Assembly: GCF_921293095.1 (NCBI RefSeq)
Contig: NC_060259.1
Span: 6,324,001-6,388,000, forward strand
Length of the DNA: 64,000 nucleotides
Direction: 5' to 3'
Source of the DNA: Ischnura elegans
Lineage: Eukaryota > Arthropoda > Insecta > Odonata > Coenagrionidae
The notes below the pieces were generated by a model that saw only the letters and a program-made list of their open reading frames with translations, had not been told where the DNA came from and made no database searches. Every line of letters starts with the position of its first letter. The stretch's first letter is position 1. Position numbers and translations under genes: made by a program. Shown one piece after another: positions 3,127-56,095 of this stretch.

Positions 3127-3156
3127 TTCGGGATGTTGATGCATCAACATCCCGAA
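3127..3156. repeat. 30-bp perfect palindrome inside THAP element
   Basis: The centre is TTGATGCATCAA, with 15 complementary bases on each side and no loop. It is conserved in copy 2 (29720-29749) and lies in the intron between the two THAP exons. The role is unknown; it could be a protein-binding site or a remnant of an older insertion. Confidence 0.85.
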
Positions 3157-17030: not shown

Positions 17031-17040
17031 GAGAATCCTC

Positions 17041-18102
17041 TTGTGACTCAACTTTTTCTGAAAAGCAAGCCGGCGTAGAATAAAATTAAAGAATGCTGCG
17101 ATTCATTTTTTGTTACCACCTCTGGATTCCATTCTTTTTCCATCTACAACTTCCTTTATCTTTCGGGGTAAACTATGTGACAAGATAATGTTTAAATATT
17201 TTCATTAATTTATAACAAAATATAAGTTCAAAAAATACCCAAAAGCCATTTTATTAATCCACACTGATGAGTGTAAATTAATGTGGAAGATGAATGCTGT
17301 AGGCGTAGTAGTTTTCCTTAGGTTGAGTTGCAAAGTTCATGAAGTTGACAAAACGGCTAATTTTTCGGTGCGCGGAGTCATTTATTGCACTGGCCGTGTC
17401 TACATTTTTCAATTTTTTTGTAGTAAAATAAATAAGAATGTAAGATAAAATTTCCTTTAAAATGACGTATAGTTCATTTTTATAGCATGCAGTGATGCCA
17501 GGATATAAATTTGCAAAGTACAGCGGCACATCATTTTGACGCCGACAGTAGAAGAAAACGCTGTCTTCTTGGCTGGCACTCGAATGCATGAGGATCAACG
17601 TTGCTCTATATTTTCATATTTCCTCCCTTGATTTTAAACATCATGGGATTTTGTATGTCCTTCTGTAACTGAAATTGAACAAGTGACATAAATAATTTGA
17701 GTCCATCGTAACCATCGAGAAACACCTATCTCGATTTGTGTTGTGAAGTTGAGTTTTAATTATTCTACGGCGGCCGAATTATCGAAAAATCTCAGTTTCA
17801 AGTTATTCAGTCAATGAAATATGGAAATATTATTTATATTAAAGTTATCTTCGCTCACATGGGACACGGGTTTATCATTCCGTTTATTATACTCATATTT
17901 TTCCGTAACGCTCATCCCGACAGACGGCATGCATCGAGGCTTTTCTTCTAATTTCCTCCGTGGGAATGCAGACGAAATTTTTTCTGGGGTGTTATTGCAC
18001 AGAGGAACAATGCACCACTTGTAATTTTTCCTTACTTCAGCCATGTTCTCCTTTAAACGCAACGTGGCTCTTCCAAACCTGCAGTTTGGGATTGGATCTT
18101 GG
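17041..18102 (-). mobile_element. Element A, copy 3, left piece
   Basis: It begins inside the element (matching A1 from about 14519), so its left third and left TIR are missing. It stops at GGATCTTGG (18102), exactly where element B begins. The rest of A3 resumes at 45249 on the far side of B. It retains the longest open THAP frame of the three copies. Confidence 0.85.
17811..18044 (-). pseudogene. THAP domain frame in element A copy 3
   Basis: It is open for 77 codons from an ATG at 18044: MAEVRKNYKWCIVPLCNNTP, a diverged middle (EKISSAFPRRKLEEKPRCMP), then SVGMSVTEKYEYNKRNDKPV and SHVSEDNFN. Compared with copy 1, the CxxH region has lost both Cys and His (SHVSEDNF), so the finger is unlikely to fold. 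The shifted middle restores an open frame by chance. Confidence 0.55.
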
Positions 18103-19753: not shown

Positions 19754-20031
19754 CCCAGCTAGCACACGGGAGACTGTCTCTGGAGAAGGGTAAGAGACCG
19801 AGAGGAGACGGCCGCTTTTCCTTGCGTTTCTTCAATTTTCGAGTGTACCCCCCTCCCACTTCCGCTTCTTTCCGAGGTCAACGCTTAGCTTTACCGAAAT
19901 TACATTATCTGCCAGAAGCAGTTTGCTGAGATTGAATGGTCAAATCAATAATTTTAATTACTCCCTAATTTAATAGCTGTAATACGGTTTAGTATAACTC
20001 GAAATCAACCGTAATTAATATAGTTATACCG

Positions 20032-20195
20032 TTGATTGCGCCGACACCGGAAAGGATCCCTCCGCTGAAACGCATCCGCTTGGAAAATGGCCGAACATGG
20101 CACGTCCTGACTTCGAAGATACCAACACAGCGTTATTATCCTCGTTCCTGTTCTTGTTATAGCTTATTCAACTGCATATTCTATCACCGGTTTAA
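20032..20195 (+). CDS. Candidate exon in element F
   Basis: The open stretch reads APTPERIPPLKRIRLENGRT and ends at TTTAAG before a strong GTAAGT donor (20196). No family was recognised. Together with the terminal-exon candidate at 25165 it may be the remains of a spliced transcript of element F. Confidence 0.25.
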
Positions 20196-21289
20196 GGTAA
20201 GTACTATATTATGGTTTATCCCTGCCAATGTTTGTGGGTTTATCGTCATATTGTTTTCGCGTGTGCGCTATACTTCTCATGCCCGAAAGACTTGGATATT
20301 GGCGTTAAATGCTTAGAGAATTTGGTTCTCGTATGATTAATATTTGCATATATTTTCATTTTTTTACATATTCTCTTCGTAGTGGAAAATATTCGTTGTA
20401 TGATGTGCTTAAGTATTTATCTCGAATAACTTAGTTTGTGTGTGTTGATATTTTCACTAAGAATGGCCATTATCCTTTCGACCTTACTATTAGTTACTCG
20501 GTTGATTGTTAAGTTCCGTTGAATTCCCGTCAATGAGCAATGTGAACATCAGCTTTATTTTTCAGACATTAAAATCAATTAAAATACATTTGCGTAATAC
20601 CCGGCAAGCCACCATGTTGTGTCGTGGGGGTGAATTATTACCGACTATGCACTACATATCATGCATGTATGGAATTTGGAGTAGGGTAGTAGTCAAAACT
20701 TCACCATCTCGAAAGAAAAAAGTAGTAAGCTGGGGTTCACAATATATTTTTAGTCATCACTGAAACTGTTGACTTGGAATTTTTTGAGAGATTAGATAAA
20801 AACTCTACCAGCGACATCCACGATTCCCATTTCAATTCATTTAAAAGGCTTGTTACGATATTATAGTCATATCGCCGAAATCTCGCCGTTCTTCGCAGTA
20901 CACGTTCTTGTTCATTATTTATGCAGGTTTAGTGGGAATCTCATGTAGGTACTGCTAGCGTATCCCGAATTAGGTCTGATAATAAAGAACTAGCCGATTT
21001 CTCGCTTTGTCACTCTGGATTGCATGAATATGAACGTATAATTCTTGTGTATAAATAATTATCTCGTTTAGTGCTCGTGCGCCTAAGGGCTCATATGCCA
21101 TGTGTGGACAGTGAAGTTATATTATGGACTTCAATAATTAGTTATCGTAGGAGTCCGTGTATGTTTTTGGAGAAAATATTACAAATCAACAATATGGTTT
21201 TCTGTTATAATTACCCGATGTTCTATTTAATCCAGGCTTTCCTACCTTGCTTTCTTGATTACCTGGAATTTATGAAATCATAACATTTC

Positions 21290-22450
21290 TTTTTTATTTC
21301 ATGATTGATAGGTGATGTGTATTAATTATCAGGAGATGGAACCTCTTTCGCTGTTTTTGCTGTAACGTAATATTCACTACCAGGATGATTCTTCTGTGAC
21401 ATTGTGCCAGACATGCAGTTTTGGCAGATAAAACTTAAAAGGAAATGTTATTTATGGATTTCTAGGCAGGTGTGCCTGTAGTTTCTGTGTTGACATTTGG
21501 GTGAGGATGTTTAACTAGGTAAGTTACCCACTGGACTATTAATTGTTCTTGAATCTAATGTTAATGCATGGAATCATGCCGATTTTTAATTTTAATTAAT
21601 ATGTGATGTGTAATAATTTGGATGGAATTAGTTGGTGCAACCTATTTGATTTATTTTGGTGGTTTGCAACATACACAATGAGTATGATTCTCCAGTTAAA
21701 TTATGCCAGACATTTAGTTTAAGCAAAAGCAGCTAGAAAGGAACTCCTTTTATGGATTCCTTGGTGGATGTTTGATGAAAGAATCCATAACAAATCTTTT
21801 TATTTATTGATTAATAGGTGGCATATGATAATGTGAATGCTGCAAGGTGATGGGACCAATTTGGTTTCTTTTGCTGGTGGACAACATGCACTACCAGGAT
21901 GATTCGCCAGTGACATTTTACCAGGCGTGCTTAAAGAGGCAGTGTAAAAGGAAATGTTATATATGGATTTTGTGGCAGATGTGCCAGTAGATTCTCAGTT
22001 TAAGTTTGGGTGAGGATATTAAACTTGCTAAGTTCACAGAAATATTATTTGTTATTGAATCTGATCTCCATTCATGGATTCATAACAATTTTATATTCTG
22101 ATTAATACATCATATGTAAGTAGTATCGGGTGATGGATCCTCTTTGTTTTGATGTTAAACTTGCTAAGATTTTCACTGGAAAATTATTTGCTCTTGAATC
22201 TGATCTTCATGCATGGAATCCTTACAATGTCGAAAAAAAAATCTTGATAAATAGGTGATGGATCCTCTTTGGCTTCTTTAATGAGACTGTGCCAGTCCTG
22301 AAAGATTGGCAGAAAGCACTGGGAAGGAAATTAGTGGATGGATTCCTTGGTGTATGTGCGTATATTTTTTCTGTTATGGTTTGGTTGAAGATATTGAACT
22401 CAGGATTATACATTATTCATTCTTAAATCCACTGTTAATGTTAGGAATCT
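21290..22450. repeat. Diverged tandem array, roughly 200-330-bp units
   Basis: About four units share an order of motifs: TGATTAATAGGTG, GATGGAACCTCTTT, CACTACCAGGATGATTC, AAAGGAAATGTTAT, TATGGATT, GTTTGGGTGAGGATATT, TTCTTGAATCT and GCATGGAAT. Unit length varies through deletions. Similarity is clear but imperfect, so the duplications are not recent. Confidence 0.75.
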
Positions 22451-22730
22451 TAACTTTTTTAGCATAACTAGGTGGATAATACTATTATTTTGCTTAATTT
22501 GTTGGTATGATATTGAAATTCAAATGTAGTGGTTCAGAGAGAGCTATTTTGTAATTTAACCGTTTTGTCTAGGTTTCTTGTTCGCTTGTGGCACGTGGCT
22601 AGTGATGCATTATTTATTTGAGAGTCCCAATCATGCATGTTTTTCTAGAACAGTTTCCAGGCTTTGTGCCACATGACTTTTAGCAGCTACCATGTTACCA
22701 TTTGGTGCACAAGGTTTATTGGATAGTGTA

Positions 22731-22743
22731 CCCAGCTAGCACA
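22731..22743 (+). repeat. Internal copy of element F terminus
   Basis: CCCAGCTAGCACA repeats the first 13 bases of F, preceded by TA. No GTCTCC motif array follows it. It may mark a second element nested in F or a shorter derivative that shares F's right end. Confidence 0.6.
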
Positions 22744-25164
22744 TTATAAGTCATTGAGATAAGGTGAAAGGAAGAAATTAGGAAGGCTCTCATCAAGTAA
22801 GTTTGTTATGGGTTTCTTATGGGCATGCTAAGGCCGACAATCATCCAGAGTAATGACAAAATGGATGCCAAACTTTCAGCAATTCCGTAGATGTTGTTTA
22901 GATTCCATCATTTTTGAGCATTCATTTAAGGGATTTATGTATAGGAATATTTTTTCCATTCTTGGAACTTCTATGAGTAAGTATAACATCTTACTGCTGT
23001 ATTCATACTGGGTTATCAAGCCATAAATTAAAATTCATAAATGTTAAATTGTGTGGACCTTGAATAATTTCAGTTTTTCGTGCACATATCAAACAAGTTT
23101 TTCTACATAATAGGATTTTAAACTGGTAACTACACCATTCTCTCTCATCAGCTGCTGTGGTGTAGTGGCTAGAGTACAGAACGTCAGATACGTAGGTCTG
23201 TCATTCAGTTCTCCCTGATGTTTTTTTCTTTCTGCCACAAGTATAAAGTACTAGTATTGTGCTTTATATCTTCACTAGCCAGTCGCTTGCCGTTATTAAT
23301 TTTTTTCTATTTACGGGTAAATCTGTTATCAGTTGTTAAGCCCTTATAAAGACTCACTTAATTTCACCAGTAGCCTTTTAATTCATGTCGGGATGAGCTG
23401 CATAGCATATGTAGTATGCTGTTCAGCCGCCTTTGGTGCTCCAACAGAAGTGACTTACTTGCCTGAGGACATTTGATAGCATTCCTTACCTATTCTTCCC
23501 TAGCATCTTACCCTTGCCTTAAATTAGCTTACCATCTTACCCTTAGCTTATGATAAGCTGCTTATCAATTCTTTCCGAAAGAAAACCATAAGAAACTGTT
23601 ATCTCTCTTACTTTGTGCTATCTGGGTAGGTAATCGAAGGTTATTTCTGAATATAAGCAGTAAATGTGGGTTATTAAAATATTTTTTTTGGATCATTCCA
23701 TGTGAAATCACCCAGGAAACTTTCAAAACGACACCCACCAACTCTGATTTTAATAAAATTTTGGTCTCTTCCTACTATCACGTATTTCATTACTCATGTA
23801 AATATTTCCTCTCACTATCATAGCTTACAAGATACGAAGGGTCGAAGTTTGAGATGTTTGCAGGGGCAGCTAATATTCCATTGTCTCTGAAAAGTTATCT
23901 TGCTGGTGGATCGTGTATTCACTCACATGAAGCTCTTTCATTACCCTCTTTCTGCTCCTAGAAATTGCTGCCATTGTTAAGAATTGCACCATTCCCTTAT
24001 GGGTGCTTGATGAGTTAACTGATTCCTTGATTTTTGAAGCCTGTGTACACATCCATATCACAAACTTTGTGGAGTAATTCTTTTGGCAATTTTTGGTCAT
24101 CCTTTTTAGAGGATAACCTTTCATTGAGAGCTATTTTAACTCTGCTTTTAAATTTACTGCATGTGTCTCTACTTTCCTTTTGACGTAGGTTGATCTTCTG
24201 TGAGATGAAATACCATGCAATTTTAAAGGTTTACTTTGTGAAACACCAGTTTAGGTGGACTCATTTCACTCTTTAAGAGTAAGTTTAATGATTGAAGCGT
24301 ATTATTTGAGTAATTTTATCTAAATTAGTATTGTCATTTATCTTTTATCGTGCAGTAAGAGTCCTATGTATGGTTATACCATTTTTCTATGAACTAAGTA
24401 CCTAAAAAATAGGTGGATTCCAGGAAAAGAGCATCATTTCAGTGTGTGCAAGCCATTGGGATCTTTTCCCCTCAGCTGCCGCAAGTTAAGTATTGTTCTT
24501 AACAAATAATACGAACTGGAGCCACATTCACCTTTACTCTGCATTTTTGTGGTAATTCTGAAAATATGAAGTAATGTTTTTATCTAAAAAAATCTGCTAA
24601 GTAACAAAATTTGACATTATTTTGGCTAAAGTAGCAATGCATGGGGAATGAAAAACATTATGTGGAAGCTTCCTACTTGGATAGACAAGGGGTCCAAATT
24701 TCATTCAAATTTATGTGGTTTTTGAGTTATGAATTTTTACCTTGTGCCCTGCACTCAGGAATTTGAATCCCACCACCGCCACTTCTGAGCAAACATCTCA
24801 ATCTTCGGCCCCTCATGTCTTGCAAACTATGAGGGTAAGGGAGGAAATATTTTACATCATTCATTAAGTTGGTTGTAGTAGCTAGTGACAAAAATATTAT
24901 AAAAATCCAAGTAGGTGGGTGCCATGACCTGGGTGAACTGACATGGAATGGCCCTTTTATGTGAGTCCTTTTAGCTCCAAAAATCTCAGCCTTTCCTTGT
25001 GCATCAAACTATTTTCAAAATGTATTAACCATATCTAGTGAGCATTGTATTATTATTTTGCTAGCCTGAGGGAGTACATGTTATACTGTCTCAAAACCAC
25101 TATTAATATATTTTTATTGGAGTCATCGAGTTTCTTGATTCTGGTATTATGCTTCTACTTTTCA

Positions 25165-25393
25165 GGCCTTGATTCAGTCTCTTGATGTTCAGTTTACTTG
25201 TGAAATGCAATTGATATCCAATTGGGAGATACATTTGAAGCTTCACTTACATGATCTGACATTAATGGCAGTCAAATTGGAAGACAACTTTGCCAACGTC
25301 AAGGTTCAACTGCTTACTGGACTCAGGTGGACATGGGTTCACTCAGGTTCATTAATGTCATGTCTCTGTCTACTTTCATTAAACAATAGATAG
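25165..25393 (+). CDS. Candidate terminal exon in element F
   Basis: An acceptor (CTTTTCAG) precedes an open stretch starting ALIQSLDVQFTCEMQLISNW and ending with a stop at 25391-25393. AATAAA follows at about 25421, a normal distance for polyadenylation. No domain was recognised. This is a low-confidence exon of an element-borne gene. Confidence 0.25.
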
Positions 25394-26264
25394 GGGATAT
25401 CCGTCCCATTGTATTTGTAAATAAACCAATATTTGAAAATATATAAATTTTTTGCCTTTTCCTATGCTAATTGTATGTTGTTATTTTTGTTTCTCAATTC
25501 TCATCAATGCTGAAAGCTGCCCTGTGTTACAAATTCCGTAAGTAATATGCTTATTTTTTAGGTGAGGTTGTAGTTTGCATGTGCCACGGTTTATAAGTGG
25601 TATGGTTACCAATTTTCTACGTATATTAATTCCAAAAGGGGGGCGGGGGTCGCTGTAACGCTAGTAGTACTTAAATATGCCACTAGATGGCGCAACCGGT
25701 TCACTATTCTCGTACCTAGTTTGCAAACTTATCGCTTGATGGCGCATCAATCGGAAATCGGAGACCGTCTCTTGAGTAGTGCGGACATTTCGTCATGGGT
25801 TCGTCATCGTATCGTCCGGCCGTCTCCTTGTTGTCTCCGGAGACGCTTACCGCTTCCGGGAGACGGTCTCTTTGGTTTCTGTAGAGAGTCTCTAAGGATT
25901 CGGGGGAGACAGTCTCCCGTGTGCTAGCTGGGTTCTTAGGTTAGGGTACGTGAACTTCTAGTTAAAGCATTCCGTTTGTTGCTTTTTGGCGGCCAACCTA
26001 GGTTTTCTTCAAGCTTTCCCCATGAAGATTGTATTCTTTGTTAAATGATGATATCTTCCTCTAATCTTCAACTGAAGTTTAATCAATTATTGATGTTCGG
26101 TTGTATTTTACTTATGTAATTTTCTTAAGGTCAGGTTGACACGCATTGCATTTATGCTTAAGGCTCGTTGTTGACGAGATTGGTTCAAGTGTAGGACTGC
26201 TTTTGAGACTGTCATACAATGTCATGAGTGCATGCGATAAATCGCATAAAGGACACTCCACTTA

Positions 26265-26522: not shown

Positions 26523-29136
26523 TTAGGTGAGTTAAGTTAATTATGCTTATTTTTGGTTTCATTGAAATTTCTCTAATAAGGTATTTAATCAGTCTTATCT
26601 TCTTTCATATGTATCATATGATCTGCTCTTTATAGTTTACGTTTATCACCTTGTTGTTAGAGGATTTGCAAACCAGTGGGTAAAATCTTCAGGACAAGCA
26701 TCGGTCTGCTGTGGTGCCCGATCATGGTATCCAATGAAGATCTAATATTAAATAGGTTTCTTGTGGTGTACCCCATGGTCATATTCTTTTTGTCATTTAT
26801 ATTACTGACCTCTCTAACACGCTAAGTAAAGTACAAGGGGCTATAACAATCCCTAATTCAGACGATCTAATATCCGAGCAGACGATACTAGTAAAACAAA
26901 CGACTAAGGGTGCGATTCATAGACGACACTGAAATTGCTCACTTTACAAAGTCTCTCTTTACGGTAAAGTGAGACTTTAGCTAAATTTCGTTTCAGAGTC
27001 GTCCCAAGGATCTCACTTTATAAAGTGGAACTTTAGCTCCTAAAGTCTCGATCATGAATTGAAATTTTTGAGTGTTGGCAATGAACGCTGCGAAAAAGTG
27101 AAGAAAAAGATGACACACGATATTAAATGCGTACTTGTTTACATGTTTCTGGCGACTGGGTTTTCGTGTTGTATTTTGCTAAGATTTATTAAGCTGTATT
27201 TTCTCGTTTTCTCATATTATGTGCAAATGTAAATGAATACTGCGTCATTGAAAGCTTTTCACCACTAGCTTTTTTGTACGTTAATGACTGAGTTGGCTGA
27301 ATAAAAGCTCACTTTTAATTAGCTTCGTGTATTGGTAATGCCCTTCGATGTTCCCAGCGAAGTAAATATTCAAATGCTGATATTTTCACGTCATTTATGA
27401 TAATTTTCTATGATTAACTGCATACGGTTGTTTGGACTACATGTTAGTCGAAGTTTGATGGTGTACGTTCATTGAAGGTGGGTGAAATAGTGAAATTCTC
27501 TCGCGTTAACTTGAAACTAGTGGTTGTCTCAGTTGGACGCATATTTTGAATGAGGCATGGGTGTTTGTTGAATTCTTTTGTGCTTATCAATATTTTAATT
27601 CTTGGAATGTTGACCTAAGGGGTTATATATTCTAGAGAAATGGACGAGAATGTACAGTCAAGAATATCTATATCATCAAAACCAATGAATGAATGGCCAC
27701 GCAATGAAACATGTTGAATGTGAGAATGGACTTATATCAATAAATATCTCTTTGTCTACTTTAAAAGATGCCTCGACATATGTGAATACCTAACCAGAGT
27801 ATCCATTCACGAATTTTGCAGTAGAAAATGTCTGTGATGCTGTGTAAATAACATTTCATAACAATCCTACATCCTCGAGGAAACATCCCAGACGGCACAG
27901 AACCCTCCGTATCTAATTCGTATGTACATAGTACCCATTGACTAAGGGGATACTATGCCGCTTCGTCGCTTTTCGTCAATGGATAATTTCCGTTCGCGGC
28001 CTGTCGACGAAGCGCGTACGCAGCATGTGAATGTCCGCTACTAAGCACGTACGATTGGATACGAAGCGCGCAGGAACACGGCACTCAGGCTAATCTCAAT
28101 CGATTAGGTCGACATTAGATATATCGTAACTCGCACGATCGAAAAATGTATCGAACGCAACACAATCGATAGCTACCGACCGTAGCGAGAACCTTGATAA
28201 GAATCATTATGAATTGTAAGTTCTCAATAGGTAAATCACACCATATCATGAATTCTAATTACCATGAAAGACTCACGACCGACAAAGTTTTGTCGGTTGT
28301 GAGTTTTTCATGGTAATTAGAATTCATGATATAGTATTATTTACCCATTGAGAACTTACAAAACTTACTCGGCCACTTAAATAACTCTGCGAAAAATGAG
28401 ATTCTCATGGCTAATTCACGCACCCCCAGCATCCAGCATTGTTAAGTGGCTCGTACTTACTTGGAAACCTTGAGATGTTAATGAGAGTAAATTCTTATTA
28501 ATTTTGACACTAAATAAGACATCACATAGCCCACGAGCATTAAAAAGCTTACCCTAAAGCCGGACGAAATAAAAATTTTAAATAAAAATTGCCGATGAAA
28601 CAGGATTGCTGACACATCTGCTATTAGTATGATCGAATTAATCAAAATGCAAGCAAAAATTAACGTATAGTTCAGTCTCAGCTACTAAAACTTACCCATA
28701 TCAGGCGCTAAAGTATTTGAAAAATTATTTGGGATGAGTTAAAGTCCCTAGGTCACTGCAGTAAATGTATCACCCTATTAAAAATATGAAAGTCCTGCCA
28801 AATCACCAGCATAAACACTTGTAAAATAAAACATGTTATCTCTTAGATCACACCTCCGATTTTATACTTACTTTGCATGAAGTCACCACCGCAAGAAATT
28901 TTAAAGAGGCAGGAAAGAAAAAACCCACAGAAATACAATACATATATTATGTATTTTCTATTGTCAACCACAATAATATTTCCAATTTTCTCTTCTATCC
29001 CACATCTAATTTAGCGAAACAATTACTCTTATTCTCTTTCGAATAGAAAATTATTTAAAAGAGGACTGGTCGATACATACAAACTATCGTCAATACTTTC
29101 TCCGATGAACGTCCACTATCACTGCACCAACTTGCA

Positions 29137-29326
29137 CAAATCAAATCCACAAATATGTCACTTCTGCCACAATGTCTGTCTTCTTGGCGACAGGTAACAG
29201 TGAAGCAATGGTACCTTCCTCCAATCTGGGCACCTTCAATTCAGCAAGAATTTTCTCCTCGTCTTCTCGTCTAAGGCCACAGATTATTTTCTGATATCAC
29301 AAGGTGCGATGTGAAGCTCAGACACC
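29137..29326 (-). pseudogene. THAP domain, second exon (copy 2)
   Basis: The acceptor is followed by VSELHIAP, where copy 1 has VCELHIAP. The third zinc-binding Cys has become Ser, so this copy has drifted further from a working finger. Confidence 0.55.
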
Positions 29327-29804
29327 TAAAATTAATAAACAATAAAATACCATGTAACTTATTAGGTCAAATCATTTCCAATTTTTGCTATTTCTGCATG
29401 AGAAATCAAATTACTAGGCTCGTAAATATAGTAAACATTTTTATGCCTGATATTTTTATTGTTTTAAACTATAGCATAAGATAATTTGAAATGATGAAAG
29501 CCGACGTGTAATACACCATAGGGCAAGCTAAGAAGCAATATTCGAACCTATAAACTTGGCAGCTTATTCCTAGTTTCTCCTTTAACCACACGTTTACCGA
29601 ATGAATTAATACAAAAAAGACAACTAAAATGCAAGAATTTTCAAAAGAATTGCTGCTACAATATTTTGAATCACCATTTTTAGTACTGAATAGTACTATA
29701 GTACTTCAGTACTGAATAGTTCGGGATGTTGATGCATCAACATCCCGAAGCCACTTCTAACTTAAAATTACATCCAAATAATTACAGCGAGAAAGAGTAC
29801 ATAC

Positions 29805-29953
29805 CTCACAGCTTTTCGTAGGGGTGAAATGTTTTCTTCTTATCGCCCAAATGCACTTCTTCTTCAACTCAGGATCTTTTGGAAAGCTAAAACCTTGAAC
29901 CATGTCCCGGAGTTTCCATTACGTCATCCCGACAATAAACACACGAAAGGCAT
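29805..29953 (-). pseudogene. THAP domain, first exon (copy 2)
   Basis: This is the same as the first exon of copy 1, including the shared frame change and the GTATGT donor. It would encode the first Cys pair and the FPKDPELKKK stretch of a THAP finger. Confidence 0.65.
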
Positions 29954-31113
29954 TTTTAACAAAAATATCTCACAAACACGTTTCTGAAGCCCAGTGAATG
30001 AAATTAAAGAATAAGGGAAACTTCACTATTACCAGACACTCTATTTTTCACAAACTTAACCACAAAAATCCCTGAAATGTGGTAAGACGTTACGTAAACG
30101 ACGCGATCTCCAACGCCTTGCGCTAGCTTGTGAAGACATGTGATCTTTCTAGGAGGATATGGCACGATGGCACCAGATGGCACCACCCGCGTAAGAAAAT
30201 AGTCCCAGACCGAATACAGTTTTATCGATGAGATACAATTTTATCGATGCATATGAATTTGCCAGTCCTCTTGCATCTTTATTCGTCATTAAAGGAAATA
30301 AAGAAACAAAACCTTCTAAGTAACTTCCTAAGCGCGATTTTTGTATCTTGATTGTCCACCCTCGTATTTAGGTACGAAAACTTCCTGTGCCGTCTGGGAT
30401 TGCTTTGCTGCTGATAATATGGCTATGAAGGAAAGTACGTTTTACTTTTTATTGCTGCCTTTCATGACGAGATCTTATATCATCATTGTAAACATGCAAA
30501 TGCATAGTCGAAAAACGAAACAGAAACTCGACTCTAGTTTCACAATCACAGAAACATGTTAAGCGTGATATGGAGGCATACGGAAAGAGTACATTAAGCA
30601 AATATTGAATGAAAACGCTTAAAATGCAATACAAGGTGTAGAAACTAGTATTTGGCTGGCCAAACGATATGAAAATCAAGTCTTTGTTTACGAAGGCTAT
30701 TGACGCCAATGTATAAACAGAATTTTGCTATCATATTCAAGTATCTTTAAGGAAAATTCTAGAATATGAACGTATAAATAACCTAAGAACTTAACAATTA
30801 ACTTGTATATAAAATCAACATAAATTATGCCAACCTGTTCAACCACTTACTGTAATTATCACACGACCGATAGAGTTAAACTTCAAAATATAAGAATTGG
30901 GTCATCTCCATCAATACCGACTCGATGTATATTCAGGGAAAAGACATATATTACTTGTCTGGTTATTTCTTGAAACGCGCCAGTTTGCTGCTGTGTTCTC
31001 ACCAAAAAATTAGTTCATATTCATTTCCGTAACCCAAATATCTTCATATTTCAACTTCAATAACAGCCGGTGCAGCCATATTTATTCATCCGTAAAGGAC
31101 ACTTTAGCCCTAA

Positions 31114-32020
31114 AGCCCGTATGACACTTGCCAATTTATTGGCCAATCCATTGGATATTGGATTGTGTACCCACTGACACACGCCAATTTCTAGCCCAAT
31201 CTCAGTTTCACAATATTGGGCACAATTTCTTGGCCAATCTACAATTTAGAACAGGTTCTATTTTCTCGAGGCCAATCTCCAATCAGAACTCAGTCTTGTC
31301 GACTCCTAGTGGCCAAAACTAGAAGCTCTTTGCAAAACATTTCACCTCGGAATTTTAATATCATATATAAAAACTTTACAAGCATAGCAACCCATGAAAT
31401 AGCTCAAATAATTAATGTGTACTTTGAGAGAATATAAATTCACAAACATCAACTGTCTAAAGTGGGTAATTCGGAAATAACATTTCGGGTATGTAATGAA
31501 TAAAAACGTCGTGTTTCTCCTCGATAGCGTCTATATTTTGTTTATTTTACAATTATTAAACTATTTTTCATGATTTGAGCGCTAAAGTTTCGGGTGAAAG
31601 TCCCAATTGATGACACAATCTCTGTTTATTTCATGAACATATTCCAGCCAAAACGAGCCGCTACGTTATCTTGGCTCACCTATGAGATCACCATATTGCC
31701 TATCTCTCATCATTCAAGGAACTCACCCGAATGAAATTTCGAGCAATTCGAGAATATCTTTGCAGCCCCTCGAAATAGTTATTAAATTTACAATTATTAT
31801 GCCACCTCCCATTCTGTAGCTCATTGGCAATTAACCTGCGTCTTGAGATGCTCTTTTGTCATTTTGTGTTATGTGGCGTTCTCTAGTGGGGTATTAGAAC
31901 ACTATAACGGCCAATATTGGTGTAAATATTGGTACGTGTCATACGATGCGTAAAGCCCAATATTTTTACCAATATTGGGCCAATTTATTGGCCAATAAAT
32001 TGGCAAGTGTCATACGGGCT
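31114..32020. mobile_element. Element D, PIF/Harbinger-like MITE (0.9 kb)
   Basis: The TIR of at least 34 bp starts AGCCCGTATGACACTTGCCA and is identical at both ends. TAA flanks both sides (31111-31113, 32021-32023). Subterminal sequence repeats GGCCAAT and ATTGGCC many times. It has no coding capacity and is inserted in E. Confidence 0.9.
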
Positions 32021-32991
32021 TAAGGTGAGCTCCGGTTGGGCACTTTACGGTAAAGTGACGATTCGGCCATTTTTCCTCTAAAGTGGCGTTTATGAAACGG
32101 AAAAAGCAGACTTTAGCCCGGCTAAAGTATACTTTAGCCTAAAGTGCCGTCTATGAATCGCACCCTAATGCCCCGTTCACACTACGTCCTTTTTACGCCG
32201 GTTAGCCCCGACCATGGTTACAAAACGAGGTGTGAACGCAAGTTCCCGTTAACCGTGGTTGGGATTCTGACCACCGTTTTCCGACCATGGTTGGCGGTAG
32301 TTCATGCGGGTGTGAACGCAAGTTGGTTAAAAGCTGGTTAGAAAAAGAAGAAGGCGAAGCAGCAACGAAGTGGGATAGGAGGAAAGAAAACAGAAAATAA
32401 AGTTTCGAAGAGGAGACGGCCGTTATTGTTGAATTATATTCGTCAGAATTAATTCAAAGGAAAGTGCTATTGATTCATTCCATAATGTGTTTGTAGTATG
32501 AGATTTTAAACCTGATTTAAGTTATGCGATATACTTTATAGTTCGTGGTGAATTAGCTATTAGCTCGTATTGTATTGTCACGGACAGATTGAATAATCTA
32601 TATTAATATTTTGCTAGAAATAAGTAAAATGTGCGAAACTACCATAATAAAAATCCGAAGGTCACAATGATTTTAATGTTTTGGTAAGAGTTCTTTGTCC
32701 CAGTTTGAAAAAGATCACTTATGTTCATCCTTGAACAAAAGTTCTTCCCATATCAATATAAAGTATCAGGCTAACGGCTAGTCAGATGTAACGATAGAAA
32801 ATAAATTTAGAAACGTCGGGTGATACCACATATCGCAAAAATTACCACGTTGTCTCTCTTATTTCATAAGTTAAATTTCAACAATCGTCACATTTCTGCA
32901 AGTTATTCGTCCACATTTGAAGAAGAGGTAAAAGAGTTTTAATTTACGGTACAGCATCAGATTGGATCATGTCCTTTCTCAAAGTCAGAAT

Positions 32992-35900
32992 CAGTGGCGG
33001 CTCGTGAGTCAAATGCTAGGGGGGGCGCACTCCACCGGGGGGTCATAATTTTTTAATATTTCGTGTATTTTATTAAGTTTTTACGGTAATATAGGAATTA
33101 AATTCTGTGATGCCATACGTTCCGTTTTTTTTTCAACAAAAATACCTAGTTTTCCTAATAAAGCTTGATTAATAAATACTAAATGCAGTAGACTCTCGGT
33201 CATACGGATCGGCTTAGTCCGGACTCTCGATGATACTGATCAATGATCTTGAAGAATAAAAATATATTTGCTGCGATATTTTGCAAATACAAACGAAAAT
33301 ACGTAACTTTAGGTTTTAGAGTCTACATTCTTCGTGCGGATATGCCCGCAATACACTTCTGTTGTTCGTTTTGCAATAATAATGCGTTATTTGTCAAATC
33401 TATACAACATTTGCAATGATTTAGGTAGCAATGACACTTGTAACACCTGAGGAGGGAGGAGAGTGTCACTGACTTCCACTAGGCAACAAACACTACTAGA
33501 ATGCCCGCGCTTTGCTTTGCAGATGTAAACTTTGATGGCGGTGTTCGCGATACTTCTTGAATACAGTATGATTTAAAATCAACAATTAAACATTTCTCAC
33601 ACATTTTTAACAAAATAGGAAATACTCACAGGCCTTTAGTTGTATTGCAAAAGTCCATCCTTCTTTCATTTTGTCCAGCAAAGTGATCAATTACACGTTC
33701 GTTGAAATCAGCGCTGGACAACAATTTCTTTCTGATTGAACACATGGCAAGGGCACTAGTCTATAAATAAACAAGGGACGACACAAAATAGGCCGACGAA
33801 AAATACGACCAAAAAGAACAAGGTGCCTGGACACAGAATTGGGACAATTTTTCCCTATATTTCCCTTAAAAAAACGAGCACTGTTGATTAATTCAAAATT
33901 GTCTTCTTGAATGTACACACCCCAGGAAAGAAAAACTGATTTCCAACCGTTTTGAACCTCATTTGAATCTGATCTGAATCGTTAAAATCTGATTTGACTC
34001 TGTCTTGACACTGATTTCCACTGGTTTCCAGCGGACAGGAAATGGAAGGAAGTGATTTGAATCTCATTTTCATTGTAACTGGTTTCCAGCTGTCCTCCAC
34101 ATGGACTGTATTGACACTGAATTGAATGTCATTTGAAACTCTTTTCCTTATTTATTGGCTTGAAAGTGTTTTCCACAAGTGCTTTCCAACTGAGTTGAAT
34201 CGTAGAATGAATTTGAAATTCTCCTGATATGAGTGTCTTGTAGAAACCCATCTCACACAGGCTTTACTACTGCGTTGATTGGAAAATTTTTGGATTTTTC
34301 TGAGGTGTCAATGAGTATATTTAATTTAAAATCATGGTCAGAAATAAAATAATGACATAAAGGAGGAAACATGTACTTTGCCGTCTTGCAAAAATGCACG
34401 GGTGATGAAAAAATTTAATGTACATCATCCGCACTTTGCATTGCATATCATTTCACCTGTTGGAACTCACTACCACCAATATACCAAACTGTACATAACT
34501 TTGGAATGAAATCACGTAAAAACCTCACTTCGCATTTAAAAAAATATAGCCGGTATAGTGCTGCCACCTAACTACAAAAGATAGTAAAACATAGTAGCAA
34601 CGCCGATACCCGATTTCGTTTTGAATGTTTACGTGCTTGTGGTTGTCTCTTTTGTGCTAAAGTTATAGGGTGTGGAGAAAAAAATAATCATATCAGTATT
34701 ATTTAACCAGTGCTAAATTCCCGCAGCGTTGAATTAAGCCATTCGTGCATCTCTTCAGGTTTTAAGCGACAGTGAAATTCTTGATGTGATTTGGATTTCT
34801 GTGTTTTCATTGAATAATTTATCTTTTGTCTACAGTTTTTGAGCGATTGCTAATATTTTTGTTTGCAATATGTATAATATGTACGCGCGTTACGTCGCCG
34901 ACGAGAACCTACCAGGATTTTCAGAGTATTGTGTATCTTGCAGGTTTGTTTGTGCTAAGTGAAACGAACTTGTGTTCGTGTATAAACAGTATGGCAAGTT
35001 TCTGTAGTGAAACTTACAGATATGGTTGGCTTAATGCTGAATCAGAGTTATTTTCATAAGGCATGTAAAGAAGTCTTTCTTTCATGAAGGCATCTGAAAT
35101 ATTTTCTAGTGTTGTGGTTTTTCTGTTAATCACGGAAAAATTTGTGTTCTTCGATAATTCAAGATTGTGAACTCTGATGTAAGCTGTTGTTCTGGTGCAA
35201 TGATTGTTCTTTTACTCCTGGCAAACCTTGTGCCTTTCGATGAGTGTTCATGATTGTTAGAACTGATAAACAGTGTGGAAAAGCACTACTAATTTGTCAA
35301 ACTCTCCTTCAAATGAGATTTCATCTGTAAATTCTGTGTTTCACTAAATTATTTCTAATGCATGACATTAAGATTTTAAGTGTATTCAGCCATAGAAATT
35401 TATCAAATTAGATGACAATGTATTTTCAATTGAATATGTACTCCCAATAGGGTTTGTGCATACTTAATAAATACGTTAATAGAGCCTGTGTTATTTCATT
35501 GTGGTGGGAGACTTACATGAAGTTCATTTTGTTAGGTTGTATTTTGTAAACTTTTTTGCTGCCGAGTCTACATCCAGATTGATGACAAAGATGTAGTATG
35601 TGAAGTTAGAAACGTTGGTTGAGTGCAGCTCTGCGAAACTTGGAATTGGCGGAAGTAAGTCATGCATCAGCAGGTCATAGGAGGTGAGAATCGAGTTGCA
35701 AACAAGATTCAGATCGGTATGACGGTGGAAAACAGATTCGAAATAGCTAAAACGGGGAAACCTGTTGAACGGTGGAAACCAGAGTCAAACCACATTCATG
35801 GAAATGAGTAGGAAAACAGCCGCCATGTTGGACCTTCACAACTGATTTCCCACTGTCTTCCTACTGATTTCCAGCTGTTTCAATTTTCAAAACAGATTCA

Positions 35901-37411
35901 AAGGAGAAGGAAATCAGTGCGTCAAACCTGTTGGAAATCACTGTCAAATCTGATGGAAATCAGTTTTTCTTTCCTGGGACAGCACTAAGAAACTTCTTAA
36001 TCGCCAATTACGCACAATTAACTCCTCGAAAATGATGTCTGAACTCATTTCACTCCGTTCTTTCCGAGAGTCTTACCGTTACTATAAGGACGACTCAAGG
36101 GAGATAGAAGTCGTGGTCCACTAATGCTGATTCAGCTGAGGGACGAATTTAAGGTCAGCAAAGGCATTCACGCAAACAAAGGACGTCACGGACCATCTCC
36201 TTGAGTCTAAGATTCATATGTGGTAAACACACGAGACGCCAACGGGTCGCATTTGGAATAACCGTGTCTTCGAAATCATTGCCATGATATAACAGAAAAT
36301 AAGTTCTAGATCGTAAAAGAAGACGACTCGACTGAGCCACAGATGGGAGCTGTAAGGATTTCCTCACTGATATGAACTCTTCGAGGCCACTTAAATCAGA
36401 CCCAAGTGGGAATTTTCCGTCAGATAGCTACCGCTCTGCCACTGAGGAATTAGGTGAACATGAACTAATACAACAAGGACGGCTAGAAAAATGATGAACC
36501 TACACACAAAAGGTGCATTGTACGCGGCACTTCATGACATTAATTGAATGACTCTATTTAAAGTCACGCTTAAAGATTTAAATCATATTTAATCCTTCAC
36601 CCTTTCACGCACGCAACTATTTCTTAAATTATAAATCAGTGGGGAATGTTAACTGATTTTTCCTAATACTGCAGGTCTTTTGATAAATTTATCTGAAAAA
36701 TAGGTACCGTATTTCTAATCATCGGGAAGATATGAATACATTGTTAAGGCCTAAATATTATAATATTAGTTTCCCCAAGGTTCTTGAAATTCGTAATCAT
36801 AACAGAACTGTGTCAAATACTCGAGAATAGTTTTCCTTCGTCAATACGGCCTTTAACTGGTTGGATTTTATGTGTTCCGGAATTCAAACACCAAAAAACG
36901 CAAGCATAATGGGATAATTTATTTACTGTAGCAATACCTACCAGTAATTAAAAATTAAAATCGTATAACTACACCCAGTACAGTGACCATTCTGATTCCG
37001 TACGTCCCTTTTCTGTGGCAGCACCAAGTAGACGCCAGATTGTACGCCCGCCGGCCTGCGCAGCGATGTCAACTCACACGTCGCTCTGCGCATTCTCGGA
37101 CGACGTCCCAAGACTTCCATAAGACACAACGTTAGACGCGTCATAGCACCAGCGGCCCCCACCACTACCACTCTCCATATAACTGCATGGGGATGGATTG
37201 GGACGTTCTGGCCAGCGCCCCACGGCTACAAATACGAACTTCTCGCGCTATTTCTTTTCGTGTTTTTCCAACACTTTCGATGTATGGGACTGAAAAAACG
37301 CTTTGATTAATCAGATGTATAATTATAAATTAATGGATATTTATTTTTTTTACTTTTTCAAATATTTGGGAGGGGCGGCGTCCGAGAGTCCTTATGGGCA
37401 AACCGCCACTG
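32992..37411. mobile_element. Element L, hAT-like (8-bp TSD)
   Basis: The ends CAGTGGCGG and CCGCCACTG are inverted, with a perfect 8-bp TSD, GTCAGAAT (32984-32991, 37412-37419). Both points fit hAT elements. The sequence just inside is G-rich (GGGGGGGCGC and AGGGGCGGCG). Own DNA is about 2.4 kb after removing M. No hAT transposase domain was recognised, so it is probably non-autonomous. Confidence 0.9.
33921..35978. mobile_element. Element M (2.06 kb, TIR CCCAGGAAAGAAAAACTG), inside L
   Basis: The TIR CCCAGGAAAGAAAAACTGAT is inverted at the right end, and AC flanks both sides (33919-33920, 35979-35980). About 250-350 bp inside each end carry many GATTTCCA/TGGAAATC and GTTTCCAGC motifs in opposite orientation. 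The core (about 34553-35390) is homologous to the core of N although the ends and motifs differ. A 77-codon open stretch (34826-35059) starts in the shared core and has no recognised domain. Confidence 0.85.
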
Positions 37412-37700
37412 GTCAGAATACAATAATAGCTAAGAATGTAATGCAGCGAAAAGTGTATCTCCATCCCAAATCACAAGTGTCTCAAATTGAGGCTCAAGTC
37501 TCAAGATTAGGTCCTCTATTTTCTTCACCTACATCAATGATTTGTCGACACATCCGAATCAAGGGCAAGTAGTAGTATATGTTGTTGATATCAACCTAAT
37601 TATCAGTAATATTCGCTTTCATTCGTATTAAATAGAGCAGTAGAAGAATGCAAGCCACACTATGGATGAAATGATTAGTTGGACGAACACATTTGAATTA

Positions 37701-39703
37701 CCCTGTCGATTTCTGAAACAACAATGCCTGTTCGCTGTCCGTTTGAAGTCTGTTGATAGCCTGTTGGAGATTAGTGAACAGAGTATAAACAGCCAACGAA
37801 CAATCTCGGGTCACTCACAAGTAGGAACAACTTACGAACAGCCTACCAACAGTTTGTACTCTGTTTGCAGCTTGTTCCTTAACAGGCAGGCAACAAGCAT
37901 TTCGGGAACAATAGTGAACAAGCTTTTAACAGGCAGGGGCCGGTTGGTAGTATGTTTCACCGAACAGGGAATGAACAGACAACAGTGAACAAACACTAAA
38001 CACCCTATCGATTTACGTAAAAATGATGCCTGTTCGCGGTCAGTTTGGAACCTTTTGGAGATTTTGAGAACAGATTATGAACAACGTACGAACAATTGTT
38101 TTAAGTTTCGGAATTTGGACAACAATTTGGATTAATCCAAATTTAATTGAGTACAAGGAAGTTTGATTGAATCCAAAGAAAATATCGTCTACTTAAACAG
38201 TAATTATATACGGTTGAATTCATTATCACGATTACCATCAACCACGGATGACGGTTATTGAAGTGAGCACGCAAATTATATTAGCTATCTGCTCGGCTTA
38301 CGCACGTTAAATACTTTACTTCGCCAATTACAGGCAGGGGCCGTATGTTTCAGCCAAAGAGTATGTACTCTGTGGTTTCAGCGGACTGGGAACGAACAGA
38401 CAACAGTGAACGGACAGACAACAGTGAACGGACAGTCAACAGTCAAGGGCCGGTTCATAGTCCGTTTCACGGTACAGGGTACGAACAGAAAACAGTGAAC
38501 AGCTAGTGAACAGGTTCTCAACAAGGACGGAAAGATAGCGTGGTGCTGCTACCTACCTATAGAAGATAGCAAACGCAAACAATGACGCCAATAACCGATA
38601 CCGTTATCCGGACAGTTTACGAGCACATGGTCGACTGTGTTGTGGTGAAGTTGTTGGTTGCGGAGAAAACAGTTATTTATTTGATTATTATTTAACCTGT
38701 GCTAAATGCCCGCAGTGACGAAATTAAGTAATTCGTGCATCCATTCAGTGATAGTGAAAGTCGTGAAGTGATATTTGTTCTTGAGTGTGTTTATTTAATA
38801 ATTTATTGTGTCTCTTAAGTTTTTGAGCAAGTACTGAGATTTGTATTGTATTTGCATTATGCGTATGTGCGTTACGTCGCCAATAAGAACCAACAAACAT
38901 TGTCAGAGGACTGTCTTTCTTGTAGGTTTGTTTGTGAGAAGTGAAATCATCGTGTTCATAAATATTCTTTAAAGGCGTGTTTCTCTTTTAAAATCACACG
39001 TATTATATTGACATAGTGCAGAATCCGAGTTGTATTAATTTAAGGAAGTACATATTTCTTTGATGAAGGCATGTGAAATATTTGTTGATGTAGTGGTTGT
39101 TCTGTTAATGATGACAAAGCTTGCTTTTCTGCAACTATTCAAGATTTTTATAACTAATGGAATATGTGGAAAAGCACAATAAAAGTTTTTCTTACAATCA
39201 TTCAAATGAATTTCAACTTTTAATTCTATTTTAACATAAATTATCTCTTGTCTATTATGTCCAACTTAGCAACAGCGAACAGTTAAGGAACAAAGTATGC
39301 GCATAGGGAGAGAACAGACAAATAACCATCTTCCCACATTGTCACAGACAAGGAACAGACAAGGCGTTCCAATTTACATTCTACGAACAGTCGCCTGCCT
39401 GTTCTCTCTTGGTCAAGGAACAGGGAACAAACAACCTAAGAAAACAGGCAATGAACTGACAGCGCACAGTCCCCTGCCTGTTCATTGTCTGTGGTCCAAC
39501 AGGTAAGGAACAGAGAATGCCGCTTTCTTAACAGGGAGGGAACAGACAAGTAACCCTTTTCTCACAGACAAGGAACAGACAAGGCGTTCCAATTTACATT
39601 CTACGAACAGTCGCCTGCCTGTTCTCTCTTGGTCAGGGAACAGGGAACGAACAGCCAACTGACAGACAATGAACAGACTTTATTGTTACAGAAATCGACA
39701 GGG
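37701..39703. mobile_element. Element N (2.0 kb, TIR CCCTGTCGATTTCTG)
   Basis: The ends CCCTGTCGATTTCTGAAACA and inverse CCCTGTCGATTTCTGTAACA are flanked by TA (37699-37700, 39704-39705). Both sides carry dense GAACAG/CTGTTC motifs. A second partial copy of the TIR (CCCTATCGATTTACG) lies inside at 37999. The core (about 38538-39250) matches the core of M in order and sequence. No recognised protein domain. Confidence 0.85.
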
Positions 39704-40216
39704 TACCTTCTACGTAGCAAGGAACAATGATTGTCGACGCTGGAATGCAATTTTTAATTCATAAGCAGCTCATAATATGCACATATGTTTAAATTCAAAA
39801 ATCAATATCATTGCAATTAACACAAGAACTTTTCCCTGCACATTCTATATTTCCTTCCAACAAGTTATTCGCTCTTGTCAATTCATTTTTCACTTGGAAT
39901 TCCTCTACCACTCATCAGATGTCGCCAGGGTCTAACCATGGTTGAGTGTGAACGCGCGTTGGTTCTGACCAAGGTGCGTATAATAGGAGGTGGTCTCAGC
40001 TGAAACTCCGTGCGGGCGTGACGTCACGAGGTTCCCAACGTAGACGTATGCCAGGGAATAACAAGCAGGAACCGGGTCGTGATATCGCCTTTCCGCATCA
40101 AATTCTTATGAGTTACAATAAAAATATCGTTATTAGCCATCAGATTACGTTGTATATTCTTCCGGAATGTCCATGTTTCCTTTTCAATCGCATCATAAAA
40201 CTAGCTAAGTAAGCAG

Positions 40217-49913: not shown

Positions 49914-51215
49914 AATAGTAGATAAGATAGTAGGTAGATAATAAAGATACTGAAGTATATAAACAGATACTGAATACACTGAAGTATTATTTTATACTTC
50001 CATAGCCCAAATAAAGTTGTAAGCTACTAGCTGGAAGATATTTAATCTTTCGTACGATCAGCTCATTAATTGCATCCCTCTCCTACAGAAATGTAATGCA
50101 ATTTTGTGAGAGAAGTATGTTAGTGTGTAACATGTATGTGTAGATGTTTGGTGAGTGAAGGAGATCTAAGTAAAGGTAGTACCATGAAGAATCCTTCTTC
50201 CATGGTAGTGCTACCCTTGCCTTACCCTCCACGGAATGTAGAGCATGGGTTGATGGAGGTTTAACTACACACCATGGAGGGTACTACCCTACGTCTACCC
50301 ACCATGGAGGAGTTAATTTTTATTATAGTGGAAGTTGCTGGTTAAAAGTTTTGCCTTAAATGGGTTAATACATTGGAATTATAATAAACCATTGCAAATT
50401 ATTTATTGACTGCTTACTACTTCCCCAAACCCTATTTCATGTTTCAACCTTCATTGCTTGAGCAATCATTTAGAAGTAATATTTATTTTTACCTCGCATA
50501 TTCATTTTTTACTATGTTACCCAGCTTGCTTAAATACTTAAAGTTTAAGTACTTGTGATATTAGTCTCAATTTATGATGCAGCCCATTGTAATGTCATCC
50601 AAATAGAGCAACTCTTCATAAGCCATGATTGTGGCTAGTGGGTAACTTTGAACCCATGTGAAATTCATCTATGTGATAACAAATATAAAATTGTGACTCA
50701 TCTTGAAAAAAATTATTGTACATTAAAAATTGACCACTCCATAGCCCAGGATTCCTAATATCATTAAGTACCAATGCCTAATATACATTATAATCATTTC
50801 ACAATTACAAAGAAATGTAAGAGCAATTGCAGAATACCAAATAAAATATCAGTTCTCATGTCACATCAGAATCCAGACCAGTTGACTCCCTTTGATTTTT
50901 TCAGAATAGTTCCAGTCCAGTTGAAACTCATAGAATATTTCAGCATAGTTACAGGATAGATCCAGACTAGATGCAGACCATCGAAAATTACAGTACAGTT
51001 ACAGGCAGTTGATCCAGATCAGTTACACACCATCGAATATTAGGGCGCAGTTACAGACCAGAATTCCAGACTAGTTACAGACCATTTTCCTTTGCCTCTC
51101 TGAAATCCAGACCAGTCCAGTTCTGTTACAGACCAGTCACAGAACAAAATTTAGCCTTTCAGACCAGTTACAGACCAGATCCAGATTAGTTACAGACCAA
51201 ATATGTATATCTAGG

Positions 51216-53618: not shown

Positions 53619-56095
53619 AAGCGAAATTAGAAAATTTGTCTGTCGTTGTTGCTAATTTTCGTTTATTAGTGATATTGAGGATAAATTTTAATAATTATTT
53701 AATTTAAATGTTCTTTGTCTGTAATTTTTTATGTACACTGACAGCTTATTGAACTCCTTTTTCTCCTCTCGTAAATTGCCGCCACGGCTGACTAATGGCC
53801 TTATGATATTCTCAACAAGCTTTTGCACGCTTTTACGCGTGATTTATTGTTATTCACTTCACTGCATCACGTGCGTCTTTATTCATGTAACACATTGGTA
53901 CGTATGACTCCGTACTTTCCACGACATAACATTTTATCCAACCTCTTATCTCCCGCCCGCTGCAATTATATTTCGACGTCTCCTTAATACAATCAAATCC
54001 TTCTTCGGTAACGACATACATTTCAAAGGAATCTTCTTAACCGAATCATTTTACTAAATTTTATCCACAAGGAAACAATATTTCTTGTTTACAAGAAGGG
54101 TACACTAAGAGTAAGATTATCGTGCATGGCGCGCGAATAAAATGTTTTCAGCGAACCTCAGCAAGTGGCTGATAACGTCGCCGAATAGTCGCCGTGAAAG
54201 TGATGGCTTCACAGTTTTTTATCCTAATCTTCCTTATCTACATAAGTGATTCATTGTATCACTGCTTTGCTGACACCTACTTTGTGGGCAACTTCTGAGA
54301 ATGCGTCATCAGTTACTAATCTAATGGTTTGCATGTGGAGTCCCGACGGCTTAGTTTGCATCAACTCGTGTGTATCAGAGGTTCGGATGCGTTTCTTCGC
54401 ATTTTGTTTTCTGTGCATTGAGTCATTTGAATTTGCATCAAAGTTCATCATTGCAGTGAAATTGCATAAAAAAGTCTAGTGCCTTTTTTGAGTGGTGTGA
54501 GTGATATTTTTCAAAAAAAAATATCACCAATAATGGCTGGACCATCACGCATAACGGACAAGGGTATTTTGGAAATTTTAGACAGTTCATCCAATGAAAA
54601 TGAATCAGACTACAACGAAAGTGACAGTGAGTTGGGGAACAGTAGTGATGGAGATCAGCATTCGTTTCAGTCTTCGGATGAGCTGGACACTGACGAAGAC
54701 AGTGAATACGGAGAATGGAGGGAAGTACAAGCTCCTGAAGAACAAATTCCCACTTAGTTCAAGTTACAAGAAGTAAGTGGACCCAAGAAAGCCCCACCAC
54801 CTAACTCGCCACCAATTCTTTATTTTAGACTTTTTTTTACTTTCTTTTGAACCTCTTCGTCACTGAAACAAATAGATATGCAAAACAAAACATTACCTCT
54901 CATTCAGGAAGATCATCACCACCACTGAAGTGGGAAACAGTTACAATTGCGGAAATGAAAGGATTCCTAGCCTGTATTTTGAACGTGGGAATTATACGGA
55001 AGCCCACCATAGCTTCATATTGGTCGACTTTGCCTTCTCAGAGTACCCCTTGGTTCGGTAAAATGTTTCTGCGGAATCGCTTCCAGTAAATTTTGAGATT
55101 TTTTCATTTGGTTTTCCCTAAAAAATGTACGGCTCGTAACGATCCCAGATATGACCCTTGCATCAGGTACCAACCCTTGTTGACCATGCAAATAATGTAT
55201 TTAGATACCATTATACCCCTCACGAAACTCTGAGTGTAGATGAAAGTCTGGTAGGGACAAAAAACCGTACAAGTTTGTTGCAGTACCTGCCAAATAAGCA
55301 CCATCACCGCTGGGGAATCAAATTTTGGATGCTGTGTGATGCTTTATCAAACTATTGCTTAGGTTTCTTTACCTACAAAGGTAGATCAAATGATGAAGAA
55401 AGGATGGAGGTGAAGGAACATGGGCTGGGATATACAGTGGTATTGAAACTCCTCCAGATGAACAATTATTTATACAAAGGCTACCATGTTTTTGTGGACA
55501 ATTTTTTTATGTCAGTTCCCTTAGTGAACAAACTTTACCAAATGTGAACATATATGATAGGAACTGTTAGAAAAAAACGAAAATTTCTGCCCGAGTTTTT
55601 CAAAAAGAAGTTCACCATCGGGGAAAAAATGTTTTGCCGTTCCGGGTGTATTCTAGCCAGTGCATTTAGGGAAAAAAATGCTCAAAAAGGACCTGTGATC
55701 CTTCTTTCAAGTAAGGCGACTGCAAGGAATAGTGAAGGGACAAAACTGAGACAAGGCCGCAAGAAAAAAACTGTGAAACCGGAAGTAATTTTGGAATATA
55801 ACAAGTATATGGGAGGTGTAGACTCTTCAGTCATGATGCTCCTTGTATATTTAGATGAAAGGAAAACATTAAAATATTGGAAGAAAGTAGCGTTCAACAT
55901 TATTGGGAGGATGGTTTTGAATAGCTACATAATATATAAGGATAATTTCAAAGAACCTGGAAAACCTCTGACAAGACTTATGTACACAATTAGTATAATT
56001 GAAAACTTAAGAGCTGAGTGGTTGAATTTCAGGTAAGAGTGCGAAGTATTAGAGGGAAGTATTTCACCTGGAATAAGGTAACTGGGTGGGAGAAA

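Follow-up and report, generated by a model that had tools for sequence, protein, structure and literature searches.

A homologous core between unrelated ends in two families of apparently non-autonomous DNA transposons from Ischnura elegans

Two elements, M and N, in a 64,000-nucleotide stretch of the Ischnura elegans genome (hereafter the window; contig NC_060259.1, positions 6,324,001 to 6,388,000) contain a homologous core in the same order and orientation, as the original prediction had proposed (34553-35390 versus 38538-39250). The alignment comprises 708 aligned sites, of which 503 are identical, and 151 gap columns; with two different scorings, its local score exceeds that of shuffled sequence by 122 and 129 SD. 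The arms flanking this core show no detectable similarity, in line with the proposal: four arm pairings under two scorings gave no similarity above shuffles (z -1.5 to 1.8). New here is the same 11-bp pitch in the arms of both elements, carried by different words. M and N each form a family with fixed boundaries, made up of DNA transposons that appear to be non-coding and non-autonomous (Table 1), and a discrete replacement of the ends, or a move of the core, is the account that fits best and that we consider somewhat probable.

Table 1. Positions of the parts of elements M and N in the window
Feature	Position	Strand	Remarks
Element M, apparent non-autonomous DNA transposon, 2058 bp	33921..35978	+	CCCAGGAAAGAAAAACTG at both ends, inverted order
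M target duplication, 2 bp (AC)	left copy 33919..33920, right copy 35979-35980	.	read in the window copy
M left arm, 11-bp-pitch array (e.g. CTGATTTCCAA, CTGATTTGAAT)	33921..34210	+	lag 11 strongest of lags 4-40
M left spacer, no N counterpart, fastest-changing part of M	34211..34552	+	43/317 sites, old versus young
Shared core, M copy	34553..35390	+	503/708 aligned sites identical to N 38538-39250
M right spacer, no N counterpart	35391..35620	+	
M right arm, 11-bp pitch, closing with inverted terminus 35961-35978	35621..35978	+	lag-11 z 6.1
Element N, apparent non-autonomous DNA transposon, 2003 bp	37701..39703	+	inverted terminus CCCTGTCGATTTCTG
N target duplication, 2 bp (TA)	left copy 37699..37700, right copy 39704-39705	.	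window copy only
N outer left arm, GAACAG array, 11-bp pitch	37701..38002	+	lag-11 z 7.2
N inner (older) left arm, opening with decayed terminus CCCTATCGATTTACG	38003..38537	+	16/21 letters of outer terminus
Shared core, N copy	38538..39250	+	alignment to M core
N right arm, 11-bp pitch, with 98-bp duplication 39339-39436 / 39559-39656 (96%)	39251..39703	+	lag-11 z 5.5

Structure, target sites and content of the elements

The search space was the 1.72-Gb genome in 110 contigs (C1, C2 and so on denote contigs, and L009-L048 extracted loci). With the M core as query, the best 40 places of 467 candidates were kept, the window copy among them; the other 39 (L009-L047) are closest relatives and no random sample. 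For N, the N-core query gave the best 40 places of 459 candidates, and the whole element listed 41 matches (40 scored of 622 candidates), likewise closest relatives and no random sample. Both M boundaries recurred in full in 33 of the 39 other places (best 40 of 467 candidates), and N was full length at 98-100% in 38 of its 41 listed matches, window copy counted. End-to-end similarity to M was lacking in L024, where the first 17 bases are absent, and in L040, L044, L045, L046 and L047. The homologous core is bounded on both sides and occupies a comparable place in M and N.

Seventeen of the 33 full-boundary places are copies of one insertion within a duplicated repeat, of which L024 is also a part. 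These 18 copies (L011-L014, L016-L019, L021-L029, L034) have common flanks of up to 6.8 kb at 98.7-99.97%, and the repeat sits 0.1 to 4.4 Mb from contig ends, on the minus strand at low ends and the plus strand at high ends (18 of 18); they are one M insertion in an oriented subtelomeric repeat. The 17 same-flank places (the same loci without L024) were counted as one site in the target analysis, and L010 second copy, L024, L040, L044, L045, L046, L047 and L048 were dropped, an end being missing, altered or outside the locus. A 2-bp target duplication was present at 18 of the 19 independent M sites having both ends, with 11 kinds of dinucleotide; the sole site without it was L033 (AG versus AT). 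In L010, M (2413-4475) lies two bases away from an end of element A, described below. Eleven M termini (C1-C5) without a nearby exact core match were considered as coreless M elements, yet several have an M right arm about 2 kb away, and no such elements are claimed.

The start of N had to be corrected: the element begins at 37701, and position 38003 is the decayed inner terminus of a doubled left arm. This inner terminus lies 302 bases inside the outer one in the window copy and 301-307 bp inside it at 34 of the 43 outer left N termini on C1-C4; at the other 9, no inner terminus was present among the matches listed (100 of 133). Compared to the outer end, the decayed end is 72% identical over 71 bp, 16 of which are outside the element, and 66 of 84 alignment columns are equal between the inner and outer array stretches. 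N-type ends thus remain recognisable at 70-80% identity. Doubling was also seen elsewhere. An array in L009 (~905-1555) runs twice into the same GGG end, its status as a terminus being read from the letters alone; the CCC pattern of this array family has 273 genome matches, and 82 of the 100 listed form 41 same-strand pairs 271-347 bp apart, 34 of them at 293 or 294 bp. End doubling is recurrent (both N arms and a third array family) and would supply new outer ends. Three pairs of N right-type termini, 1337, 1337 and 680 bp long, have no exact core match; at these lengths they could not hold the core in addition to two complete right arms. The 8.5-kb N-ended pair at C3:2719188-2727656 has no exact core match either. 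Ten longer N-ended pairs on C1-C5 (2.5 to 25.6 kb) were read as nested insertions, since every length is different. At C1:154344446-154344448 two N right ends are separated by one base.

The core matched nothing in Pfam in three forward frames of the M copy, and the longest ORF among those of at least 50 aa in 33921-39703 was 108 aa. Coding DNA was rejected as an identity for the core: mismatches between M and N show no phase (73, 68, 64), and the one shared frame, of 27 codons, has 2 synonymous versus 10 non-synonymous codon differences. A structured RNA was likewise rejected (covariation term -0.44 with four sequences; no tRNA; no Rfam match at the family threshold).

No autonomous partner, or full-length element with a transposase, was found in the searches made. 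Six-frame translations gave no Pfam match for L010:4473-6840 (E 0.01), for element A (up to E 1) or for element C (19754-25932; curated cut-off), and a DHFR_2 hit in element C (E 0.003, an 86-aa fragment below its cut-off) was taken as chance. Elements A and B are an inverted pair of another CCCAG element (window 2498-4988 and 27887-30398, 96%, duplications GT and AT), and a relative in L010 seems by eye to hold a broken THAP-like exon, with no Pfam match. Element C, also of the CCCAG type, is 6.2 kb long and encodes a protein fragment on the minus strand (23873-24130); the fragment has many genome relatives, some of them within long open frames that reach 878 aa (C19:1277956 and 1280056). None of these relatives was seen by eye inside long M- or N-ended pairs (150 places listed of 410 candidates). 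The window also contains a piggyBac-type transposase frame (DDE_Tnp_1_7) interrupted by a stop at 55155-56036; at 62033-62674 lies part of a reverse transcriptase, whose match stays under the cut-off.

Arms without detectable similarity but with a common 11-bp pitch

The predicted layout of CCC terminus, array, core, inverted array and GGG terminus stood in part. CCC...GGG termini are present in both elements; the inverted array holds as a tendency for M, where the word TTTCCA has 6 of 7 forward matches in the left arm and 5 of 7 reverse matches in the right arm, and does not hold for N, where GAACAG is forward in both arms (9/11 left, 12/15 right). The dense GATTTCCA array attributed to M was not confirmed, with 5 exact copies when both strands are counted; the regularity is the 11-bp pitch found in both families. 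A small EM motif search for the array unit gave no clean unit. Searching each element for the termini or words of the other revealed no relic (best partial matches 12/18 and 10/15 letters).

We assessed the pitch in the outer 300 bp of each arm against letter shuffles. Lag 11 gave the best self-similarity in all four outer arms, with z of 7.4 (M left), 6.1 (M right), 7.2 (N left) and 5.5 (N right), but was not the best lag in the M and N cores. Elements A, B and C also have a CCC terminus and a 2-bp duplication (A and B being copies of one family), but their ends gave z of -0.2 to 3.2 and a best lag that was never 11. Segments of 250 bp with best lag 11 and an excess of at least 0.12 made up 142 of 966 inside M/N versus 13 of 3033 outside, counted over overlapping segments from the window and 23 loci, those inside being mostly M copies. 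The 13 outside segments lie at 16751-17050 and 31951-32200 of the window and in L009 and L030. Lag 11 was also strong at window 50851-51200, but the best lag there was 52. Arrays with the 11-bp signal and other words were noted at window 50851-51200 and 16651-17050, L030:6000-6400 and L009:905-1555; these are perhaps ends of further families. Eleven bases correspond to about one helix turn, which would put the array words on the same side of the double helix.

Association of the core with ends, and rates of change

To relate cores to ends we used exact patterns, with 209 genome matches for the core (reversed control pattern, 0), 146 for the M terminus and 295 for the N terminus. Allowing up to 3 mismatches raised the core matches to 326. 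The comparison covered C1 to C5:9.65 Mb, where the core, M-terminus and N-terminus lists are all complete, and comprised 67 core matches; C5:9651704, in range, and 32 listed matches beyond the range were left out. Within 2.4 kb, the only terminus present was of M for 21 core matches and of N for 40; no core match had both, and 6 had neither. The 61 with a terminus nearly always had it at the family's usual distance, a few being displaced (e.g. C1:154343607, C2:92809198). Of these six, C3:137760640 corresponds to the second copy of L031, whose sequence includes M ends; C2:126190205 lies between an N inner terminus, upstream, and an N right terminus located 8.5 kb downstream; no M or N ends were assigned to the other 4 of the 67 (C1:82282733, C4:3386033, C3:2603053, C3:59935503). 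The free letter of the core pattern agrees with this: all 21 matches with M have T or C there, while those with N have G in 39 cases and T in one; among the six without termini it is G (3), C (2) and T (1). The idea that the core is a separate repeat inserted in both elements, raised with the original prediction, was checked on these 67 matches and not borne out; with no match carrying both termini and 61 carrying one, the core lacks the appearance of a repeat that was inserted on its own.

We compared majority sequences of 3 old M copies (L046 and the second copies in L031 and L010) against 18 younger ones. Differences were found at 3/287 sites of the left arm, 7/360 of the right arm and 52/825 of the core, and at 43/317 and 10/229 sites of the left and right spacers, respectively. 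From old to young, the rate of change in the M arms is thus roughly one quarter of that in the core (10/647 versus 52/825; Fisher p = 2.9e-6). Over 23 single M copies, mean pairwise diversity was 0.035 and 0.038 in the arms and 0.055 in the core, a contrast of about 1.5-fold; such weakening would follow if no selection acts on a copy once it has inserted. Arm and core distances agreed among 21 M copies (Mantel r 0.69 and 0.85), which gives no hint of exchange inside M, though some may have occurred. Regarding the two origins first suggested for the dissimilar ends, these rates contradict, within M, ends evolving much faster than the core and leave replacement favoured.

By extrapolation, arms with the same history as the core should still be about 90% alike between M and N, where the actual arms show no similarity; the figure is based on rates within one family, M, from three old copies over a short span. 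Diversity inside M was 0.045 versus 0.071 when core sites were split by M/N identity, the lower value at identical sites, while the windowed correlation between M diversity and M/N identity was not significant (rho 0.26, p = 0.14). Parts of the core may be constrained, making the split between M and N older than it appears, and this weakens the 90% extrapolation.

Explanations and relation to known transposons

In the explanation we favour, M and N would represent a single general type of cut-and-paste transposon (CCC...GGG termini, 2-bp duplications, 11-bp arrays), each family moved in trans by its own putative transposase reading its own array word. The shared core would be a passenger that acquired other ends in a single discrete event, older than the divergence of the sampled M copies. 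One element could have been repaired on the other as template, by template switching after a break or excision; alternatively, the ends of a second family could have come to surround a core-bearing element or have recombined with it, and the former ends of that element would then have been lost. The swap, its route and age, the two transposases and their recognition of the arrays are all inferred. The swap is supported by a core that aligns between arms that do not, by arms slower than the core in M, by N-type ends recognisable at comparable divergence and by the unmixed core and end types. N ends also exist without an exact core match (the 1337-, 1337- and 680-bp pairs), although these could be deletion products of N, and outer ends can be added, as in the N left and right arms and the third array family. 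Template switching, described in animals (PMC8277862), and exchange of the centre among Galileo subfamilies (PMC3573991) offer precedents. Against it, neither relics of the other family's ends nor a hybrid M/N copy nor a donor element was found in the matches examined; the rates come from M alone, and the core is possibly constrained in part, with 4 of 67 core matches lacking assigned ends.

The shared pitch also counts against a swap, suggesting architecturally related arms such as common descent with a burst of co-evolution would give. In that case the array word and the DNA-binding part of the transposase would have changed wholesale, by array turnover via unequal exchange, while core, pitch and layout were kept. 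The same layout and CCC termini agree with this, as do lag 11 being best in the four outer arms and not in the cores and the segmental duplications that the arms do undergo. However, the arms differ least between old and young M, which align across them, and the decayed inner end of N keeps the N word; we regard such a burst as unlikely.

Independent capture, in which M and N would each have acquired the core from elsewhere (part of a gene or some other element), would explain a homologous stretch bounded on both sides and M spacers without N counterpart, and published Pack-TIRs carry captured fillers (PMC8277862). Core copies with neither family's letters at two diagnostic sites, however, gave 0 full matches and five with one mismatch in a narrow test, two of the five being M copies (C1:163584361 and, as its M termini show, C2:92809188), and the lack of matches in Pfam (three forward frames of the M core) and in Rfam at threshold speaks against capture, which we judge rather improbable. 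Insertion of the core as an independent repeat into both families is very improbable: it accords with a bounded core in a comparable place and with the 6 of 67 matches without an exact terminus nearby, but 61 have one family's terminus, nearly always at the usual distance, and a core identity of 71% would require insertions older than either family.

Subterminal repeats are a feature of CACTA/CMC elements, the target duplication of piggyBac is TTAA and that of Tc1/mariner is TA. piggyBac was rejected because M and N have 2-bp duplications, not TTAA, and Tc1/mariner because M uses many dinucleotides (the single N copy has TA). Animal members of CACTA/CMC (PMC6004678) have a 2-bp target duplication, like M (18 of 19 sites) and N (one copy), but their termini are 5'-CAC rather than the CCCAG and CCCTG seen here, and no transposase was identified here. 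ISL2EU (PMC4482050) also has a 2-bp duplication, which is AT there versus 11 dinucleotides in M. With termini that are not CAC and duplications that are not AT, the superfamily of M and N cannot be named.

The closest precedent is the chimeric Galileo elements of Drosophila (P-element superfamily), whose copies combine the centre of one subfamily with both ends of a second, and whose long ends contain tandem repeat arrays that grow and shrink (PMC3573991). M and N similarly have the same centre between different ends; in contrast, the subfamily ends of Galileo, as described there, are alignable and its duplications are 7 bp, whereas the M and N ends have no detectable homology and M duplicates 2 bp. 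For Pack-TIR elements of animals, PMC8277862 reports fillers found elsewhere and proposes template switching between TIR elements and nearby DNA; they differ from M and N, whose common stretch is in two transposon families, has no Pfam match in the tested frames and has 209 exact pattern matches. No literature on shared centres with different termini was found among open-access papers.

Together, the same middle, different ends and same 11-base spacing suggest that working ends can be exchanged as modules. It is possible, though doubtful, that M and N belong to a group of transposons with one end grammar (CCC terminus, 11-bp sites) and family-specific, exchangeable words, in which a body persists while new outer ends change its transposase, M and N being two sides of such a change and doubled ends an intermediate. 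The common pitch predicts sites on one helix face. Non-autonomous elements depend on ends that a transposase reads. If such ends are exchangeable under a constant body, classifications based on termini and on internal sequence will disagree, the M/N pair is a natural experiment on the change of transposase binding arrays, and passenger elements can outlive their transposase.
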